Shown piece by piece: positions 4,242-30,111 of a stretch of DNA of 30,111 nucleotides. The position numbers and the translations under genes were made by a program. The notes under the pieces were generated by a model. That model worked only from the letters and a program-made list of their open reading frames with translations, searched no databases and had not been told where the DNA came from. Each line of letters begins with the position of its first letter. Within the stretch, counting starts at the first letter, position 1. Location of the stretch: the IMG/VR virus record IMGVR_UViG_3300042691_040569, positions 1 through 30,111 of that record. One strand, given 5' to 3'. This DNA is from a virus.

Positions 4242-4850
4242 TTAGCTTCTTACCTTATCCATAGAATCTTTGTAGACTTCTGTTGCAGTTGCCCCTTCCC
4301 ACTTTGCGATGGGGAGAAAAACAGCAAAAGGCCATTCGTTTGGCGTAATATACATGTATTTAGAACGTACATGATTGAAAAGATATCTTTTGACGCAGGG
4401 TTTAAATAATTTTAATTGTGATGCCGATTTCAATAGTTTATAAGAAATTCTTAACTTTGTCGTGTCATTATATTTTGTATTGTTAGCTAAACTATCTAAA
4501 GAATCAAGAAGCCTTGCTCTCTGTTGTGGAGGAAGATAGTGAAAATTGATTCCTAAAAATCCATCAGGATACATTTCTATTGGAAATATAACAGGAAACC
4601 TGTCCCAATAAGGTAGTTTTTTCTTATCGTTTTTATGTTTAGCATCGTAATAAAAGAGATACATTCTGCCTATGGAAGATTGATTGAAACGTGACTGTAA
4701 CCTGTTTTCGTCTTCTTTAATTAATTTTGTGGCATCTCTTGTTGCTTTTGATGCTTCACTTCTATACCAAGCAGTTGCCTCTCTCACTTTTTGTGAGATA
4801 CCTTCTCTTTTTGCTTTTTCAAAAATTGATTCAAACGTCCCAACAACCAT
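4242..4850 (-). CDS. DNA end protector/head-completion protein, gp2-like
   Basis: 202 aa. An N-terminal charged helix is followed by GRMYLFYYDAKHKN, YWDRFPVIFPIEMYPDGFLG and INFHYLPPQQRARLL, a block I recognise as conserved in T4-like phages of marine and soil bacteria and usually annotated as gp2 (DNA end protector) or a virion structural protein. In T4, gp2 sits next to gp4 and both act at the portal and neck when packaged DNA is sealed. Here the start codon overlaps the stop of the gp4 gene (TAATG), matching that pairing. It is shorter than T4 gp2 (about 270 aa). The gp2 name rests on memory of the family plus synteny. Confidence 0.55.
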   Translation of the reverse strand: MVVGTFESIFEKAKREGISQKVREATAWYRSEASKATRDATKLIKEDENRLQSRFNQSSIGRMYLFYYDAKHKNDKKKLPYWDRFPVIFPIEMYPDGFLGINFHYLPPQQRARLLDSLDSLANNTKYNDTTKLRISYKLLKSASQLKLFKPCVKRYLFNHVRSKYMYITPNEWPFAVFLPIAKWEGATATEVYKDSMDKVRS

Positions 4851-5284
4851 TACTTGTTCTTTCTTCTATCTGAAAATAGTTCGTCTTCTGTTAGTATTTT
4901 CCAATCGTGATTGTTCTTTTTACACCACGCTTCAGCAGCAGTCCATTTTGCTTGATTGTTGCCCCATGTCAAGACATCTCTCACATATTTTTTTGTTGCT
5001 TTTTTCTTGACTTCTGGTTGATTTACTTGATACTTTGGTTTTATTTCAATGAGTTCCTGCTTACCATTCTTATATCTCACCCAAAAATCTGGAAAATATC
5101 TTCTTCTCTTTCCTGAAACAGGATCGACGTAAGGTATTATGATTTCTTCTGAAGACCACTTTTCAACTTCTTCTGATAAATCCAGATTTGACATAACTTT
5201 TAATTCCCATCTACTTCTCCAAATTATGGAAGTAGGGTCTCCTTTGTATTTTTCTGGATTTTTTGGTTTGAATTTGCCTTTCAT
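4850..5284 (-). CDS. Head completion nuclease, gp4-like
   Basis: 144 aa, close to the length of T4 gp4 (150 aa). It has the TnsA-N/PD-(D/E)XK-like arrangement: SRWELKV with E27, RRRYFPDFWVRY with D66, and ELIEIKPK with E80 and K82. Such residues form the metal-binding nuclease site. In T4, gp4 (also called gp50/gp65) is needed to finish the filled head before the tail attaches, presumably trimming DNA. The Shine-Dalgarno AAGGA lies upstream of the ATG. It is the first gene of the minus-strand late operon, and NATAAATA motifs precede it by about 30 nt. Confidence 0.85.
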   Translation of the reverse strand: MKGKFKPKNPEKYKGDPTSIIWRSRWELKVMSNLDLSEEVEKWSSEEIIIPYVDPVSGKRRRYFPDFWVRYKNGKQELIEIKPKYQVNQPEVKKKATKKYVRDVLTWGNNQAKWTAAEAWCKKNNHDWKILTEDELFSDRRKNK

Positions 5285-5312: not shown

Positions 5313-5324
5313 TATTTATTTATC
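5313..5324 (-). promoter_or_regulatory. Probable T4-type late promoter(s) for the gp4 operon
   Basis: On the minus strand GATAAATA (5324-5317) and AATAAATA (5320-5313) each differ from the T4 late consensus TATAAATA at one base. They lie 30-40 nt before the gp4 start in a 49-nt divergent gap. A plus-strand ACTAAATA (5295-5302), two mismatches, could serve gp48. Confidence 0.5.
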
Positions 5325-14665: not shown

Positions 14666-15115
14666 TCAAGCAAACTTGATTGGCTTGCCACAAACATAGC
14701 AGGGAGTGTTTGTTGCAACAGCTTGCACGTGCGAGCCGTCACAGCGAATCCAAAAAACTTCATGATACAGCCCTGACTGCTTCAGGGTTAAATTGCTCCT
14801 CCAAACACACATTGTCTTTTCACCTCTTGCTAACCTTTGTTTACAAAGGAGTATGGCTCTGTTATGTTCTTTCATACGCGTGTTTTCTTCACTTAAAATC
14901 CGGTTGTCTTCGCGCAGTTTTTTAATTTCTTCTATTGCAGCTTCCATTGCATCTAGTGCTTCCAATGATATGCTCTCATTAATTGAATCTAATGCTTTTA
15001 CTACTCCGGTATTATCATGATCATAATAATCAAGAAGATCATTCAAAACTTTTTCAAAATTATCATTATAATTATTATCACAAAGATCGCGTAAAACTTT
15101 TACAATATCACTCAT
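14666..15115 (-). CDS. Coiled-coil protein with C-terminal Cys motif
   Basis: 149 aa. Helical N-terminal half with AAIEEIKKLREDNRILSEEN, then a Cys-rich end: CVWRS, RCDGSHVQ and PCYVCGKPIKFA. The last part matches the zinc-ribbon tail of the genes at 16513 and 27188. A 25-bp stretch encoding EEIKKLRE is identical to one in the gene at 15396, so parts were exchanged between neighbouring genes. Its ATGA start overlaps the upstream stop. Confidence 0.7.
   Translation of the reverse strand: MSDIVKVLRDLCDNNYNDNFEKVLNDLLDYYDHDNTGVVKALDSINESISLEALDAMEAAIEEIKKLREDNRILSEENTRMKEHNRAILLCKQRLARGEKTMCVWRSNLTLKQSGLYHEVFWIRCDGSHVQAVATNTPCYVCGKPIKFA
14909..14933. repeat. 25-bp direct repeat, copy 1
   Basis: Identical to 15417-15441. 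Both code for the EEIKKLRE segment in two neighbouring genes, pointing to recombination or segment duplication between them. Confidence 0.85.
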
Positions 15116-15399: not shown

Positions 15400-15662
15400 T
15401 CCTTGGCCTCCAGTTGTTCGCGCAGTTTTTTAATTTCTTCTGATGCCTCTTTGGCTGCATTATAAATCCAGTCAATTGGAGTTTCGCCCGTGTGATCATC
15501 GTAGGGACGCCGCACCTCTTCATACCATTCATTAGTATGGTGAAATGCTTTTCCTGCACAGGCAACAGCCGATAAAATTTTATCGATTGGATCACAACCT
15601 GTAGATTCAAATTCATAATAATATGCTCTCATTCGACGGTTTATTTTTGTTGTTTCGCTCAT
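15396..15662 (-). CDS. Hypothetical protein, 'GKAFHHTNEW' type
   Basis: 88 aa. The centre ACAGKAFHHTNEWYEEV is followed by ETPIDWIYNAAKEASEEIKK and a C-terminal LREQLEAKE. Function unknown. It has four-base ATGA overlaps on both sides. The C-terminal repeat EAKE plus TGA is shared with three other genes of the window. Confidence 0.7.
   Translation of the reverse strand: MSETTKINRRMRAYYYEFESTGCDPIDKILSAVACAGKAFHHTNEWYEEVRRPYDDHTGETPIDWIYNAAKEASEEIKKLREQLEAKE
15417..15441. repeat. 25-bp direct repeat, copy 2
   Basis: Second copy of 14909-14933, located just before the conserved EAKE/TGA junction of the gene at 15396. Confidence 0.85.
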
Positions 15663-16453
15663 GTAATAATACCTTTCATTTTACCCATCTGAACAAGATA
15701 ATCAAGAATAATTTTTGTTTCAAGATACTTCGGATGAGTTTCATTCCAATATGTAAAAGCATCTTCAATTGTAAAATATCTGCAACCAGCTATAATTCTT
15801 GGGATATTATCAGAACAAGGAACTAAAATAAATTGATAAAAGTCTGATCTTATTGCTCCATTTACCCAAGCATCACCAGATACTTGAGCATTACCATGTA
15901 CCTTAGGATTACCAGTTACTATAGCATTACCAGATACTGCAGCATTATCAAATACTTGAGCATCACCAGTTACCTTAGCAAAATCAAATACTTGAGCATA
16001 ACCAGTTACTTGAGCATAACCAGATACTAGAGCATCAAATACCTTAGCCTTACCAAATACTTGAGCAGCATCAAATACCTTAGCATTACCAGATACCTTA
16101 GCAAAATCAAATACCATAGCATTACCAGATACTTTAGCATTACCAGATACTTGAGCATTATAAAATACCTTAGCATTACCAAATACTTCAGCATTATCAA
16201 ATACTTTAGCATCACCAGCTACTTCAGCATTATCAAATACTTGAGCATTATCAAATACTTGAGCATTATCAAATACTTGAGCATCACCAGCTACTGTAGC
16301 ATTACCATGTATCATAGCCTTACCAAATACCTTAGCATTTGGTCCAACATATGCTGTTGGATCAACCGTTGCTGTATCTGCGACCCATCCACCTCCATTA
16401 GGATGTTGATGTGCAGGTACTAATCCAAAACCAAAATCATATTCAGTTTTCAT
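15659..16453 (-). CDS. Left-handed beta-helix protein with about 29 hexapeptide repeats
   Basis: 264 aa from ATG 16453 (GGAG 10 nt upstream). Residues 30-201 are an almost perfect run of six-residue units of the type V-x-[GD]-N-A-x (VFDNAQ, VAGDAK, VSGNAK, VTGYAQ), which must form a triangular left-handed beta helix as in hexapeptide transferases and YdcK-like proteins. No transferase active-site loop is visible. One unit near the middle is a residue short (VFDAL before VSGYAQ). The C-terminal 60 residues (IRSDFYQFILVPCSDN ... FTIEDAFTYWNETHPKY) form a separate domain. Role unknown; possibly a binding scaffold. Confidence 0.85.
   Translation of the reverse strand: MKTEYDFGFGLVPAHQHPNGGGWVADTATVDPTAYVGPNAKVFGKAMIHGNATVAGDAQVFDNAQVFDNAQVFDNAEVAGDAKVFDNAEVFGNAKVFYNAQVSGNAKVSGNAMVFDFAKVSGNAKVFDAAQVFGKAKVFDALVSGYAQVTGYAQVFDFAKVTGDAQVFDNAAVSGNAIVTGNPKVHGNAQVSGDAWVNGAIRSDFYQFILVPCSDNIPRIIAGCRYFTIEDAFTYWNETHPKYLETKIILDYLVQMGKMKGIIT
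15851..16366 (-). repeat. 18-bp tandem repeats within the beta-helix gene
   Basis: About 29 diverged units of 18 bp in frame with the protein (one hexapeptide each). Three adjacent units coding VFDNAQ/VFDNAE are nearly identical, showing recent unit duplication; one unit has lost a codon. It is a coding repeat without spacers, not CRISPR. Confidence 0.9.
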
Positions 16454-16512
16454 AATCAAAATTCTCCGATCAACTTTCTTAAGTATAAATCAGGTTGAAA
16501 ATAAAGTCAAGC

Positions 16513-16818
16513 TCATTCCTTGGCCTCCGTGAGCTTGATGGGCTTGCCGCAGGATGGGCACTCTTCGTAAGCGCTAAAAAACCACTTGCAATTTTCATTG
16601 CAAGCGCCCTGATACCAGTCCGAAGGTGTCATTCGCCACTCACACACAGCGGACGTAGGATCGGTGGCGGATGTTTGGGGGAAGCTTTCGACCTCCCCCG
16701 GCACGCTTTCGGCATGCCCACCCGCCACCTTCTCGTTGCGCAGTCGCTCGTTTTCTGCGCGTAACTGTTTGTTCTCCGTGGATAGTATGTCAGTGGTCAT
16801 TTTCTTATCATTACTCAT
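16513..16818 (-). CDS. Coiled-coil plus zinc-ribbon protein
   Basis: 101 aa, GGAG 7 nt before ATG. An N-terminal coiled coil (LSTENKQLRAENERLRNEK), a flexible Gly/Pro/Ser linker, then CEWRM, CNENCKWFF and CPSCGKPIKL, a Cys pattern shared with genes at 14666 and 27188. It ends EAKE with the TGA inside an ATG, but here that ATG leads to only nine codons, so the partner gene is missing. G+C-rich compared with its surroundings. Confidence 0.75.
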   Translation of the reverse strand: MSNDKKMTTDILSTENKQLRAENERLRNEKVAGGHAESVPGEVESFPQTSATDPTSAVCEWRMTPSDWYQGACNENCKWFFSAYEECPSCGKPIKLTEAKE

Positions 16819-16836: not shown

Positions 16837-17079
16837 TTAATCAATATAGGTCATAGCTATCCAAGTTCCAAAAGCACCACCTAAAGCCATTGGTATGATA
16901 GCATAATTGTTAGAGGTATATTGTAAAACAAGAACCGCAGAAAGTACAGGAATAATAGCAGCCCAAACACAAGCTTTTAACTTATTATTATTAGCAATAG
17001 ACTGTGTGTATTTTGTCCATGCTATATCTAAAACAACATATATAAAAAACACAATAACAAATAATATCAAATCATTCAT
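16837..17079 (-). CDS. Small inner-membrane protein, three helices
   Basis: 80 aa from MNDLILFVIVFFIYVV at 17079, in ATGA overlap with the C39-like gene. Three hydrophobic segments are visible: residues 1-20, about 31-48 (ACVWAAIIPVLSAVLVLQ) and about 55-75 (IIPMALGGAFGTWIAM). Similar small membrane proteins occur in many T4-like phages. Its coupling to the peptidase gene may mean the two act together. Confidence 0.75.
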   Translation of the reverse strand: MNDLILFVIVFFIYVVLDIAWTKYTQSIANNNKLKACVWAAIIPVLSAVLVLQYTSNNYAIIPMALGGAFGTWIAMTYID

Positions 17080-17591
17080 CTTGTCAACTTTCTTCTTGGT
17101 CCTATGGAAACTCCCCATCGATGATAGATTTTACCATCAGAGGATATGTCTCTCCATCTACCATAGAAGTCTTCCTTTTTCAATCCCTTTTTTTTCTTTT
17201 TAGATGATGGATCAGAGAGATAGATTTTGTTTTTGTCATATCCCATGACAACTGCATAATGACCATTATCCCATGTCTTATGATAGTTTGTCTCAGATGG
17301 TTTATAAGACCAATCTTGATAGGCTACTATTACAGGAAACCCTTTGTCAAGAAGTTTTTCCAAATCTTCTATCGTCATATCGTGTTTTTGTTTTATTCTA
17401 AAGCGTCTGTCTCTAAAATATTTCACAAGAATTTCTGGTGAAACTCCTTCATCAGGATCTGCACCTAGCCTTCTTATCATTACTTTTTCTCTTGCTTTAT
17501 AACCATAATACTTTAAAATCACAGTCGCACAGGCAGGACCACATGAATAATTTGTAGATTGTATTATACTAGGAACATCCAACAAAATCAT
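17076..17591 (-). CDS. C39-like cysteine peptidase
   Basis: 171 aa. It has the full C39/papain-like set: Q11 in IIQSTNYSCGPACATVIL (oxyanion hole), C17 nucleophile followed by GPA, H111 in GHYAVVMGYD and D127 in LSDPSS. In bacteria C39 domains cut double-glycine leaders of bacteriocins, usually fused to an ABC transporter. Here the domain stands alone with no signal peptide or membrane segment, and it is coupled to a small membrane protein. GGAGG lies before the ATG. The substrate is unknown; a host peptide, a phage leader or a polyglycine-type bond are possible. Early-type expression is inferred from the promoter at 17974. Confidence 0.85.
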   Translation of the reverse strand: MILLDVPSIIQSTNYSCGPACATVILKYYGYKAREKVMIRRLGADPDEGVSPEILVKYFRDRRFRIKQKHDMTIEDLEKLLDKGFPVIVAYQDWSYKPSETNYHKTWDNGHYAVVMGYDKNKIYLSDPSSKKKKKGLKKEDFYGRWRDISSDGKIYHRWGVSIGPRRKLTR

Positions 17592-21944: not shown

Positions 21945-22702
21945 ATGAAGGCAGAAAAATCAATAAAGCAGTAAGTGGTGCTTTGAAAGGAGCAAGACAA
22001 GGTGCTATCCCAGCAGCAACTGGTTACGTAGGAGCCACTGTTATTGCTCCAGCAGTATTAGGAGTAACTCCCGCTGCACCAGTAGTCTTTGGTGGAATGT
22101 TGGCAAACATTGGTGTAAGAACTGCAATTGGTGCGAGAAAAGGATGGAAGGAAGAAAGAGCCAACGAGGCAGAAGAGCAATATAAAAAATATCAACAAGA
22201 CTTTCATTCAGGAAAAAATGATAAACACCTCGACAGACAATATGAACGCTATTTAAGACTACATAAAAAAGGCCATTCGGAGAATTTAATAGTTAGAACT
22301 GCAAGACGTAAGGGCATACCTTTACCTCCTGCACCACAGCCAAAACCAAAATTACATGGAGAAACAAGACAGGATGATAATATTACGATGAATCCATTTG
22401 ACACTGTAAATGTTCCATTACGCGAATCAAAATTTAAAGGGCATATTTCAATTTACACTCTTTCTGGTTGTGGTCCATGCAGAAGAGCAAAAGAAACGCT
22501 GAAAAAACATGATATTCCACACACAGAATATGATGTCACTGATTCTAAGAGTGACAATTTTAAAAAATTTGATGTAGAACAAAAAAAGTATAAGCATGGT
22601 CATTACGCTCCTCTTATTATTCATCACACTGAAAATGGAGATGTTTATATTGGTGGAAACGATAAACTTATCCCGTATCTCACGAAGCATTCTTTGGTCT
22701 AA
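21938..22702 (+). CDS. Glutaredoxin/thioredoxin-fold protein, read by -1 frameshift from the 512-aa gene
   Basis: The frame has no stop from 21938 on; the only in-frame start is a TTG at 21983 with no ribosome site, so entry from the upstream gene is most likely. Counting from that TTG: residues 8-50 are a Gly/Ala-rich hydrophobic stretch with membrane-insertion potential, 50-125 a basic helical linker, and 152-239 a glutaredoxin-like domain with GHISIYTLSGCGPCRRAKET (CGPC at 163-166), a cis-Pro at 210 (YAPLIIHH) and GGND near the end. CGPC is the thioredoxin active site. LDEG directly after the join and LRES before the redox domain could be cleavage points. Late expression is implied by the operon. 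Confidence 0.65.
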   Translation, partial: VLDEGRKINKAVSGALKGARQGAIPAATGYVGATVIAPAVLGVTPAAPVVFGGMLANIGVRTAIGARKGWKEERANEAEEQYKKYQQDFHSGKNDKHLDRQYERYLRLHKKGHSENLIVRTARRKGIPLPPAPQPKPKLHGETRQDDNITMNPFDTVNVPLRESKFKGHISIYTLSGCGPCRRAKETLKKHDIPHTEYDVTDSKSDNFKKFDVEQKKYKHGHYAPLIIHHTENGDVYIGGNDKLIPYLTKHSLV

Positions 22703-26651: not shown

Positions 26652-26737
26652 TGGTGCCTTCAGCGTGACTCGAACACGCATGATCTAAGATCGACAGATT
26701 TTGAGTCTGTTGTGTCTACCATTTCCACCATGAAGGC
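26652..26737 (-). tRNA. tRNA-Leu (anticodon CAA)
   Basis: Acceptor GCCTTCA pairs with TGAAGGC, discriminator A and encoded CCA. The anticodon loop is CTCAAAA in a five-pair stem. A long variable arm with GATC/GATC stem confirms a class II leucine tRNA. The T arm is GCGTG/CACGC with TTCGAGT loop. Confidence 0.95.
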
Positions 26738-26746
26738 TTTTATTAT

Positions 26747-26821
26747 TGGAGCGAGAGATGGGAATCGAACCCACGACGAACAGCTTGGAAGGCTGACACT
26801 CTACCTCTGAGTTACTCCCGC
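26747..26821 (-). tRNA. tRNA-Gly (anticodon TCC)
   Basis: Acceptor GCGGGAG pairs with CTCTCGC (one G-T), encoded CCA. The anticodon loop is CTTCCAA and the T loop TTCGATT. It reads GGA, the glycine codon used most in the late genes here. Confidence 0.95.
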
Positions 26822-26834
26822 GTTATATTTAATG

Positions 26835-27191
26835 TCAAATTTCCTTCTTTTCTTTTTCGAAGAGGTTTTTCATCACCTCTCTATTTCTATCACAATCAGA
26901 ACAATCAATCCAGTTGAAACTCATGTGATCTATTACTTCTCGAAGTGAGTCTCGCTCCTGAGCCTTCTTGCGTAGCTCGTCAATCCACCCACCCGGAGCG
27001 TTCTCCTGTACCCAGCCATGCAGTGCATAGTTCAAAGAATCCACCTTTTCCGCCAGCGCCTCCAGCGCGTCGGCTGCGTTCCAGTTTAGGGTGTCCGTGA
27101 CTTTGCACGGATCAGCCCACCCGCCGCCTCTGGCTTGAAGTTCCGCTGAAGCACGCAACCGCTCCACCAGTTCCTTGATGTCGTCACTCAT
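26835..27191 (-). CDS. 'MSDDIKEL' family helical protein, second copy
   Basis: 118 aa from ATG 27191, which overlaps the upstream stop as ATGA. It starts MSDDIKELVERLRASAELQA and continues with DTLNWNAADALEALAEKVDS, the usual layout of this uncharacterised phage family (also at 15112). The C-terminal CSDCDRNREV could bind a metal. Much richer in G+C than the adjacent late genes. Confidence 0.75.
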   Translation of the reverse strand: MSDDIKELVERLRASAELQARGGGWADPCKVTDTLNWNAADALEALAEKVDSLNYALHGWVQENAPGGWIDELRKKAQERDSLREVIDHMSFNWIDCSDCDRNREVMKNLFEKEKKEI

Positions 27192-27511
27192 TCCTTGTCC
27201 TCCGAAAACTTGATGGCCCCACCGCAGAATTGGCACTCAGTCTTGCCGATCTTTGTTGTATAGCCGTTGCACCGCTTTTCGCAGCCTGTAAGCCAGACGT
27301 TTCCAGCGGCAGCGTATTGCCACTCACATATCTCCTTCTCAATCAACGGGCATTCTTCAATGAAGTAATTCCAGACCTTTCGACGACCTTTTGCTCGTTC
27401 TTCCAAGGCTTTTAATTCAGCCATAGCATCCTCCTTGTCGATGTATGCCTCGAGAAGTGTTGCCATGTTGTCGGCGATATCCATACGGAACAAAACGTAG
27501 ATAGTGAGCAT
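27188..27511 (-). CDS. Small-domain plus zinc-ribbon fusion protein
   Basis: 107 aa. The first 55 residues (MLTIYVLFRMDIADNMATLL ... GRRKVWNYFIEE) are a paralogue of the gene at 27765. The rest is the recurrent Cys tail: CEWQY, CEKRC and CQFCGGAIKF, as at 14666 and 16513. It ends EDKE with TGA overlapping the next ATG. GGAG of a truncated upstream frame serves as ribosome site. Confidence 0.75.
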   Translation of the reverse strand: MLTIYVLFRMDIADNMATLLEAYIDKEDAMAELKALEERAKGRRKVWNYFIEECPLIEKEICEWQYAAAGNVWLTGCEKRCNGYTTKIGKTECQFCGGAIKFSEDKE

Positions 27512-29275: not shown

Positions 29276-29303
29276 TTGACATTAACGTTTTTTCTGCTAT
29301 GAT
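29276..29303 (+). promoter_or_regulatory. Sigma70-type promoter for the 29345 operon
   Basis: Perfect -35 TTGACA (29276-29281), 16-bp spacer, TATGAT (29298-29303). The start at about 29310 gives a 35-nt leader with AAGGAG before the ATG at 29345. Confidence 0.75.
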
Positions 29304-29344: not shown

Positions 29345-29722
29345 ATGGCTACATCAGATACACTCATTATTGTTGACGGTTCGAATGGAGTTTATGGGCC
29401 GAAGATTTTTATTGAGAAGTTGGAACAGTATCTTTCGGATGATTATCGTGAGGAGTATAAGAATGAACTTGACACAGTGAAGAAGGGGCCTTACTCTGAC
29501 ATTCAAGAAGATGTTGCACGAGAAGATTCTTTTGAGTATGATGAGCGAGATGATGCTTACTTTGAGGCATGGAATACCGTCTTTGATACGATGGAAATTA
29601 TTTTTGAGGATAAGAAGTATTATCCTTATGTTTCAGACGAAGGAGACATTTGGCTAGTTCTTTCCACTATGCTATTTAACGAACAGACAGGATGGTTTGA
29701 GCATCCCGGAGACAATTCATGA
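29345..29722 (+). CDS. Acidic protein of unknown function
   Basis: 125 aa from the ATG at 29345, behind AAGGAG. MATSDTLIIVDGSNGVYGPK then FIEKLEQYL; the rest is rich in Asp, Glu and Tyr and ends with GDIWLVLSTMLFNEQTGWFE. The net charge is strongly negative, a feature of DNA-mimic and host-takeover proteins, but no family is recognised. Early expression is inferred from the promoter. Confidence 0.7.
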   Translation: MATSDTLIIVDGSNGVYGPKIFIEKLEQYLSDDYREEYKNELDTVKKGPYSDIQEDVAREDSFEYDERDDAYFEAWNTVFDTMEIIFEDKKYYPYVSDEGDIWLVLSTMLFNEQTGWFEHPGDNS

Positions 29723-29937
29723 CATTCATTGATATGGCAACAGACGCTATTGTCAAGAATAGCAATGTTATTACAGAAATCAATAGTCTACTTCATGAAA
29801 TTGATTTAATCAATAAAAGGATTGACACTAGGCTAGACACTGTTACAATGAACGGAACTGAGTACACTGTTTACGTTCTGGAAAATCTAAGAGATGATCT
29901 TAAGAAAGCACTAAAAAATCTTAAGAAGGGTAGGTAG
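29719..29937 (+). CDS. Small coiled-coil protein
   Basis: 72 aa, ATGA overlap with the acidic gene. Helical: NSLLHEIDLINKRIDTRLDT and YVLENLRDDLKKALKNLKKG with a basic C-terminus. Function unknown. Read-through from here enters the hairpin at 29945. Confidence 0.7.
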   Translation: MTFIDMATDAIVKNSNVITEINSLLHEIDLINKRIDTRLDTVTMNGTEYTVYVLENLRDDLKKALKNLKKGR

Positions 29938-29944
29938 CAAGATA

Positions 29945-29988
29945 GTTCTCTCCATAAATACTTTGTAACTTGTTTTTATGGAGAGAAC
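29945..29988 (+). promoter_or_regulatory. Ribosome-site-sequestering hairpin (T4 gene e type)
   Basis: Perfect 14-bp inverted repeat: GTTCTCTCCATAAA (29945-29958) and TTTATGGAGAGAAC (29975-29988) with a 16-nt loop. The right arm contains the only Shine-Dalgarno, GGAGAG, of the gene that follows. A late promoter ends in the loop, so late RNA would lack the left arm. Confidence 0.75.
29953..29960 (+). promoter_or_regulatory. Late promoter inside the hairpin
   Basis: CATAAATA, one mismatch to TATAAATA. With T4 spacing the transcript begins near 29966, in the hairpin loop. Confidence 0.65.
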
Positions 29989-29989
29989 C

Positions 29990-30111
29990 TTGTTAAACTA
30001 TACTTACTTTATAAAAGAAGCCTGTTGGAAAGGCTACAGAGTACCACCTCACAAGAAAACAAAGATGAAAGGTGGTAGAAGAGTACCAAACTGTAAACCC
30101 ATAAAAGAAGA
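29990..30111 (+). CDS. Late virion protein, N-terminal part only (right edge)
   Basis: 40 codons visible. TTG at 29990 has GGAGAG 4 nt upstream and is preferred; an in-frame ATG at 29978 has no ribosome site and lies in the hairpin stem. The start LNYTYFIKEACWKGYR recalls capsid-targeting N-termini (MKTFKEFL.EACW.GY) and is followed by TKMKGGRRVPNCKPIKE, the 'K.K.GK.VPNC.P' motif that I know from internal or head-associated proteins of T4-like phages. The rest lies outside the window. Confidence 0.6.
   Translation, partial: MLNYTYFIKEACWKGYRVPPHKKTKMKGGRRVPNCKPIKE

Follow-up and report, generated by a model that had tools for sequence, protein, structure and literature searches.

A hairpin with an embedded T4-type late promoter as a probable timing switch in an uncultured phage distant from T4

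A candidate switch for late gene expression

Close to the right end of the window, the 30,111-base virus record that was analysed here as a whole, lies a hairpin (29945-29988) that quite probably serves as a timing switch in cis, of the type known from T4 gene e and I-TevI. RNA made early from a promoter at 29276, and perhaps from another at 29822, would cross two small early genes and enter the hairpin. In this early RNA, the left arm would pair with the Shine-Dalgarno (SD) sequence of the next gene, and ribosomes could not start. Late in infection, the polymerase would start at the promoter motif CATAAATA. As the start point of this motif lies in the loop, the late RNA would lack the left arm, so that the site would be exposed and the gene translated from the TTG codon at 29990. 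We infer the transcription starts, the timing, the repression and the late expression from the sequence. A switch like that of T4 gene e had already been proposed for this locus in a first-pass annotation, and the proposal is supported by the placement of the promoters, by the folding difference between the two RNAs and by a conserved early promoter that no credible terminator separates from the hairpin on the same strand.

The window contains T4-like tail and baseplate genes, and the best hit of its gp6-like baseplate protein in the phage collection is less than 40% identical. It belongs to an uncultured T4-like phage that is far from T4. A few other genes of the window deserve mention. The protein encoded at 15659-16459 (-) consists mostly of short repeats (DNAQVFDNAQVFGNAKV...) matching the YdcK-type beta-solenoid repeats, which is unusual for the small genes that surround it. 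Several small proteins (14666-15115, 16513-16818 and 27188-27511, all on the minus strand) have a common C-terminal ending, CxxCG(K/G)xIK(F/L), and are apparently paralogues that are spread over two small-gene clusters. A C39-type cysteine peptidase (Pfam 1e-17) is encoded among small genes at 17076-17591 (-), and a tail-region protein (21983-22702, +) carries a C-terminal glutaredoxin domain.

The hairpin and the gene behind it

The left arm (29945-29958, +) is the perfect complement of the right arm (29975-29988, +), which bears out the 14-bp inverted repeat that had been described. When one mismatch is allowed, the stem reaches 17 nt (94%) and leaves a loop of 10 nt (29962-29971, +). In the window, this is the only perfect repeat of at least 14 bp with a loop of up to 30 nt, and just 2 of 400 dinucleotide-preserving shuffles of the window contain any such repeat. 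The RNA from 29935 to 30000 folds at -27 kcal/mol as against -8.4 kcal/mol after shuffling (z = -7.8), and none of 200 shuffles was as good. Chance is a poor explanation of the 14-bp repeat. Among 393 late-promoter-like sites in viral loci whose downstream flanks were permuted (five permutations), no 13- or 14-bp stem arose; the observed stems of this length with which this is compared are the window site and loci that were picked by the hairpin pattern.

The gene that follows the hairpin (29990-30111, +) runs off the end of the contig and begins, from its TTG, with LLNYTYFIKEACWKGYRVPPHKKTKMKGGRRVPNCKPIKE. As had been claimed, its only SD sequence, GGAGA (29980-29984), lies within the right arm; the spacing to the TTG is 5 nt. 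The choice of a TTG just outside the stem as the start codon is favoured as well, even though TTG is a weak start codon and the first-pass annotation overlooked an in-frame ATG (29978-29980) inside the right arm. This ATG has no SD sequence of its own. In several related proteins, for example those of the contigs L152 (MQTFKQFLEACW) and L143 (MKSFKDMREACW), the same CW.GY motif follows about 10-12 residues after the N-terminal end, and the TTG is preferred since it fits this usual N-terminus better than the ATG does.

With the SD sequence of the next open frame in one of its arms, the hairpin is extremely unlikely to be a transcription terminator or an RNA-processing signal that closes the early unit. 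It does begin 7 nt past the stop codon of the preceding gene, where such a signal might be expected, but neither arm is followed by a T run, and a terminator scan of both strands gave no match here. A 96-nt tRNA-Trp called by ARAGORN on the minus strand (29968-30063), overlapping the right arm, is probably false because Rfam does not support a tRNA-Trp there; the only tRNAs found by Rfam in the window are two at 26655-26821.

The visible N-terminus of the gene product carries a CWKGY...VPNC motif, which is also found in proteins of T4-like phages and cyanophages, mostly of unknown function. Across 80 viral loci and several cyanophages, this short motif is promiscuous and usually lies within larger proteins, and a scan of those loci for stems detected no such hairpin. 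Nothing in the roughly 40 visible codons suggests a lysozyme or an endonuclease. We infer a virion-linked role for the product.

The symmetric sequence overlaps the late promoter, and the palindrome might therefore act as DNA, that is, as an operator that lies over the promoter and is bound by a repressor. A precedent exists in I-TevI, which is an autorepressor acting at its late promoter (PMC2988022). Such an operator is nevertheless very unlikely, as the SD sequence stands exactly opposite its complement, the loop measures 10 nt and the RNA fold is very stable. In addition, the N-terminus has no match to a DNA-binding domain in Pfam, though only about 40 codons are visible.

Predicted early transcription into the hairpin

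The early-type promoter that had been claimed at 29276 is indeed present and is co-directional with the hairpin. It is a sigma-70-like match (29276-29303, +; TTGACA-16-TATGAT, 11/12) with TGC before the -10 hexamer. The nearest relative contig, L008 (ATPase 81% identical), has TTGACA-16-TATAAT at the aligned place, so that the hexamers, the 16-nt spacing and the TGC before the -10 hexamer all recur. Downstream of this promoter, the read-through unit comprises gene 1 (29345-29722, +; 125 aa), which has no family match, and gene 2 (29719-29937, +; 72 aa), which has a homologue in L008 (53% over 53 aa). A second sigma-70-like match (29822-29849, +; 11/12) lies inside gene 2, and a long RNA starting from it would likewise carry both arms; it may be due to chance, as no counterpart was seen at the corresponding place of L008.

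Between the promoter at 29276 and the hairpin, the only terminator match on the same strand lies within gene 1 and is a weak stem of 5 bp. A ribosome that terminates on gene 2 does so 7 nt from the hairpin stem and could disturb its base.

The probable late promoter in the left arm

In T4, late transcription begins some 6 nt beyond the final A of the late promoter. By analogy with this geometry, a late transcript of the window phage would start at about 29965-29967, inside the loop. The motif from which this position is derived, CATAAATA (29953-29960, +), is of the T4 late type; the late promoters of T4 are TATAAATA (PMC3014915). Its first six bases are inside the left arm and the rest reaches just past it, in agreement with the overlap that had been claimed.

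The distribution of the core ATAAATA in the window bears on the nature of this motif. Within 100 nt upstream of 17 structural (tail and baseplate) genes, it occurs 8 times on the same strand, as against 0.37 expected, and 2 times on the opposite strand; no site precedes the 25 other small genes of the window. This concentration upstream of structural genes suggests that the motif class is very probably the late promoter of the window phage.

It is unlikely that the hairpin simply lowers translation from every transcript, with CATAAATA as a chance match that brings no late relief. ATAAATA is common in the AT-rich window as a whole, with 13 sites as against 9.9 expected by shuffling. Moreover, one and the same arm contains the promoter core and the complement of the SD sequence, and either may bring the other. 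Against a chance match stand the excess of the motif before tail genes, the predicted start, which falls in the loop, and the recurrence of the promoter-in-left-arm layout in T4 and in other contigs.

Elsewhere in the window, a late promoter at 5313-5324 (-) precedes the gene at 5284 (-), the SD sequence of which also scores as partly closed in a longer RNA (0.25 vs 0.92). This site is a weak second candidate switch.

Predicted access to the ribosome-binding site in the long and the late RNA

Folding supports the claim that the SD sequence is hidden in the read-through RNA. Its unpaired probability is 0.000, whichever upstream end is tried, and opening of the start region costs 24.0 kcal/mol, as compared with 6.0 kcal/mol in an RNA that starts in the loop. 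When the left arm is scrambled, the opening cost falls to a mean of 5.5 kcal/mol. With random upstream pieces, none of 2000 trials reached the real cost; the largest value was 23.9, from a piece that probably overlaps the real left arm. For the further claim of an open ribosome site in the loop-start RNA, the picture is mixed: the cost falls steeply, but across the ensemble the SD sequence reaches an unpaired share of only about 25-50%. Both the remaining cost of about 6 kcal/mol and this incomplete exposure are due to a weak alternative helix with 30007-30017.

A scan of the T4 genome following the same logic recovered e, I-TevI, I-TevII, soc and 26, all of which are hairpin-controlled according to the literature (PMC3014915, PMC2988022). 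The method therefore has a working positive control. In the long and the late RNA, respectively, the opening costs (kcal/mol) are 15.4 vs 4.6 and 1.9 for e, which has two promoters, 14.3 vs 4.9 for I-TevI, 13.2 vs 0.3 for I-TevII, 14.2 vs 4.8 for gene 26 and 7.6 vs 6.3 for soc. The cost gap between the two RNAs of the window is thus at least as large as in the documented cases of T4, and its late-RNA cost lies within the range spanned by these controls (0.3-6.3 kcal/mol). As a mild weakness, the window site is not listed under the thresholds of the T4 scan, presumably because the SD sequence of its late RNA falls below the strict late-accessibility cut-off (0.6 unpaired). The opening cost is a fairer comparison than a scan with this cut-off. 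Under the T4 criterion, phages Cr30, DLP6 and HTVC008M yielded no such switches, and phiM12 yielded one weak candidate.

Recurrence of the layout in other phages

No match was obtained when viral contigs were searched for the exact hairpin or, by a degenerate search, for the peptide of the 29990 gene; nor did a DNA similarity search in isolate phages give a match, and a search for relatives of gene 1 found none. In L008, a different gene comes next to the homologue of gene 2, on its downstream side, and there is no hairpin at that place. No orthologous hairpin was found that could reveal covariation at 29945-29988. The comparison of the two sequences indicates that the hairpin and the 29990 gene vary together between the window phage and L008, as one unit, consistent with the placing of a late gene behind an early operon.

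The pattern CTCCATAAATA...TTTATGGAG occurs in six viral contigs, and a version with one free position occurs in eleven. In several of them, the right arm lies 5-8 nt before an ATG. The genes following the hairpin encode GIY-YIG-type homing endonucleases in L002 and L188 and a phage integrase in L186; those in L003, L006, L183, L187 and L190 are of unknown function. The free position pairs in 7 of 9 distinct contig sites, where 1 in 4 would be expected, but this test is given little weight because two of the sites look like terminators (L184/L191 and L192). Some of the contigs, such as L186 with its integrase, are probably not T4-like. The latter case suggests that the pattern also exists outside T4-like phages, and the pattern alone is thus no proof of a late promoter.

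What looks like the same switch in another construction is found in L008 itself. At 4381-4420, within a 10-bp hairpin, CATAAATA is paired to the ATG that starts a gene for an HNH endonuclease, and the opening cost of this leader is 18.5 in the long and 4.4 in the late RNA. As in the window, CATAAATA lies in the left arm and the predicted start in the loop. Unlike in the window, it is the start codon that is hidden, while the SD sequence (AGGAG) lies in the loop; the stem is shorter, and both the gene and its place are different.

Taken together, the window and the other contigs suggest that a lock of this kind has been acquired repeatedly by late genes beside early operons. A bolder and rather doubtful reading is that evolution has repeatedly produced the CTCC(N)ATAAATA ... 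TTTAT(N)GGAG hairpin as a portable cassette for timing, one that gives newcomer genes late-only expression. If this were true, one lineage would guard with it an HNH homing endonuclease as well as a small gene behind an early operon, and a single short palindrome would be enough to provide phages with late-only expression of newcomer genes. The hairpin in any case offers a compact sequence pattern for finding further cases.

Comparison with known T4-type switches

In T4 gene e, the early read-through RNA hides the SD sequence, and the late promoters lie in the stretch of the 5' arm, so that the late RNA lacks this arm (PMC3014915). The window leader resembles it in the SD sequence hidden on read-through, in the placement of the late promoter and in the same kind of folding change. 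It differs in its longer stem (14 perfect bp), its one late promoter and its TTG start, and the gene is unlike any lysozyme in its visible part. For I-TevI, I-TevII and mobE of phage Aeh1, a hairpin has been described that masks the ribosome-binding site on early and middle transcripts and has a late promoter within it or beside it (PMC2988022). The window shares the late promoter at such a hairpin. Those leaders control homing endonucleases, whereas the N-terminus of the window gene presents the CWKGY...VPNC motif. The hairpin at 29945-29988 is a new example of an already known kind of switch and not a new kind: the timing trick of T4 e and I-TevI would here be at work far from T4, before a gene whose visible part is not that of a lysozyme and shows no recognisable endonuclease either.
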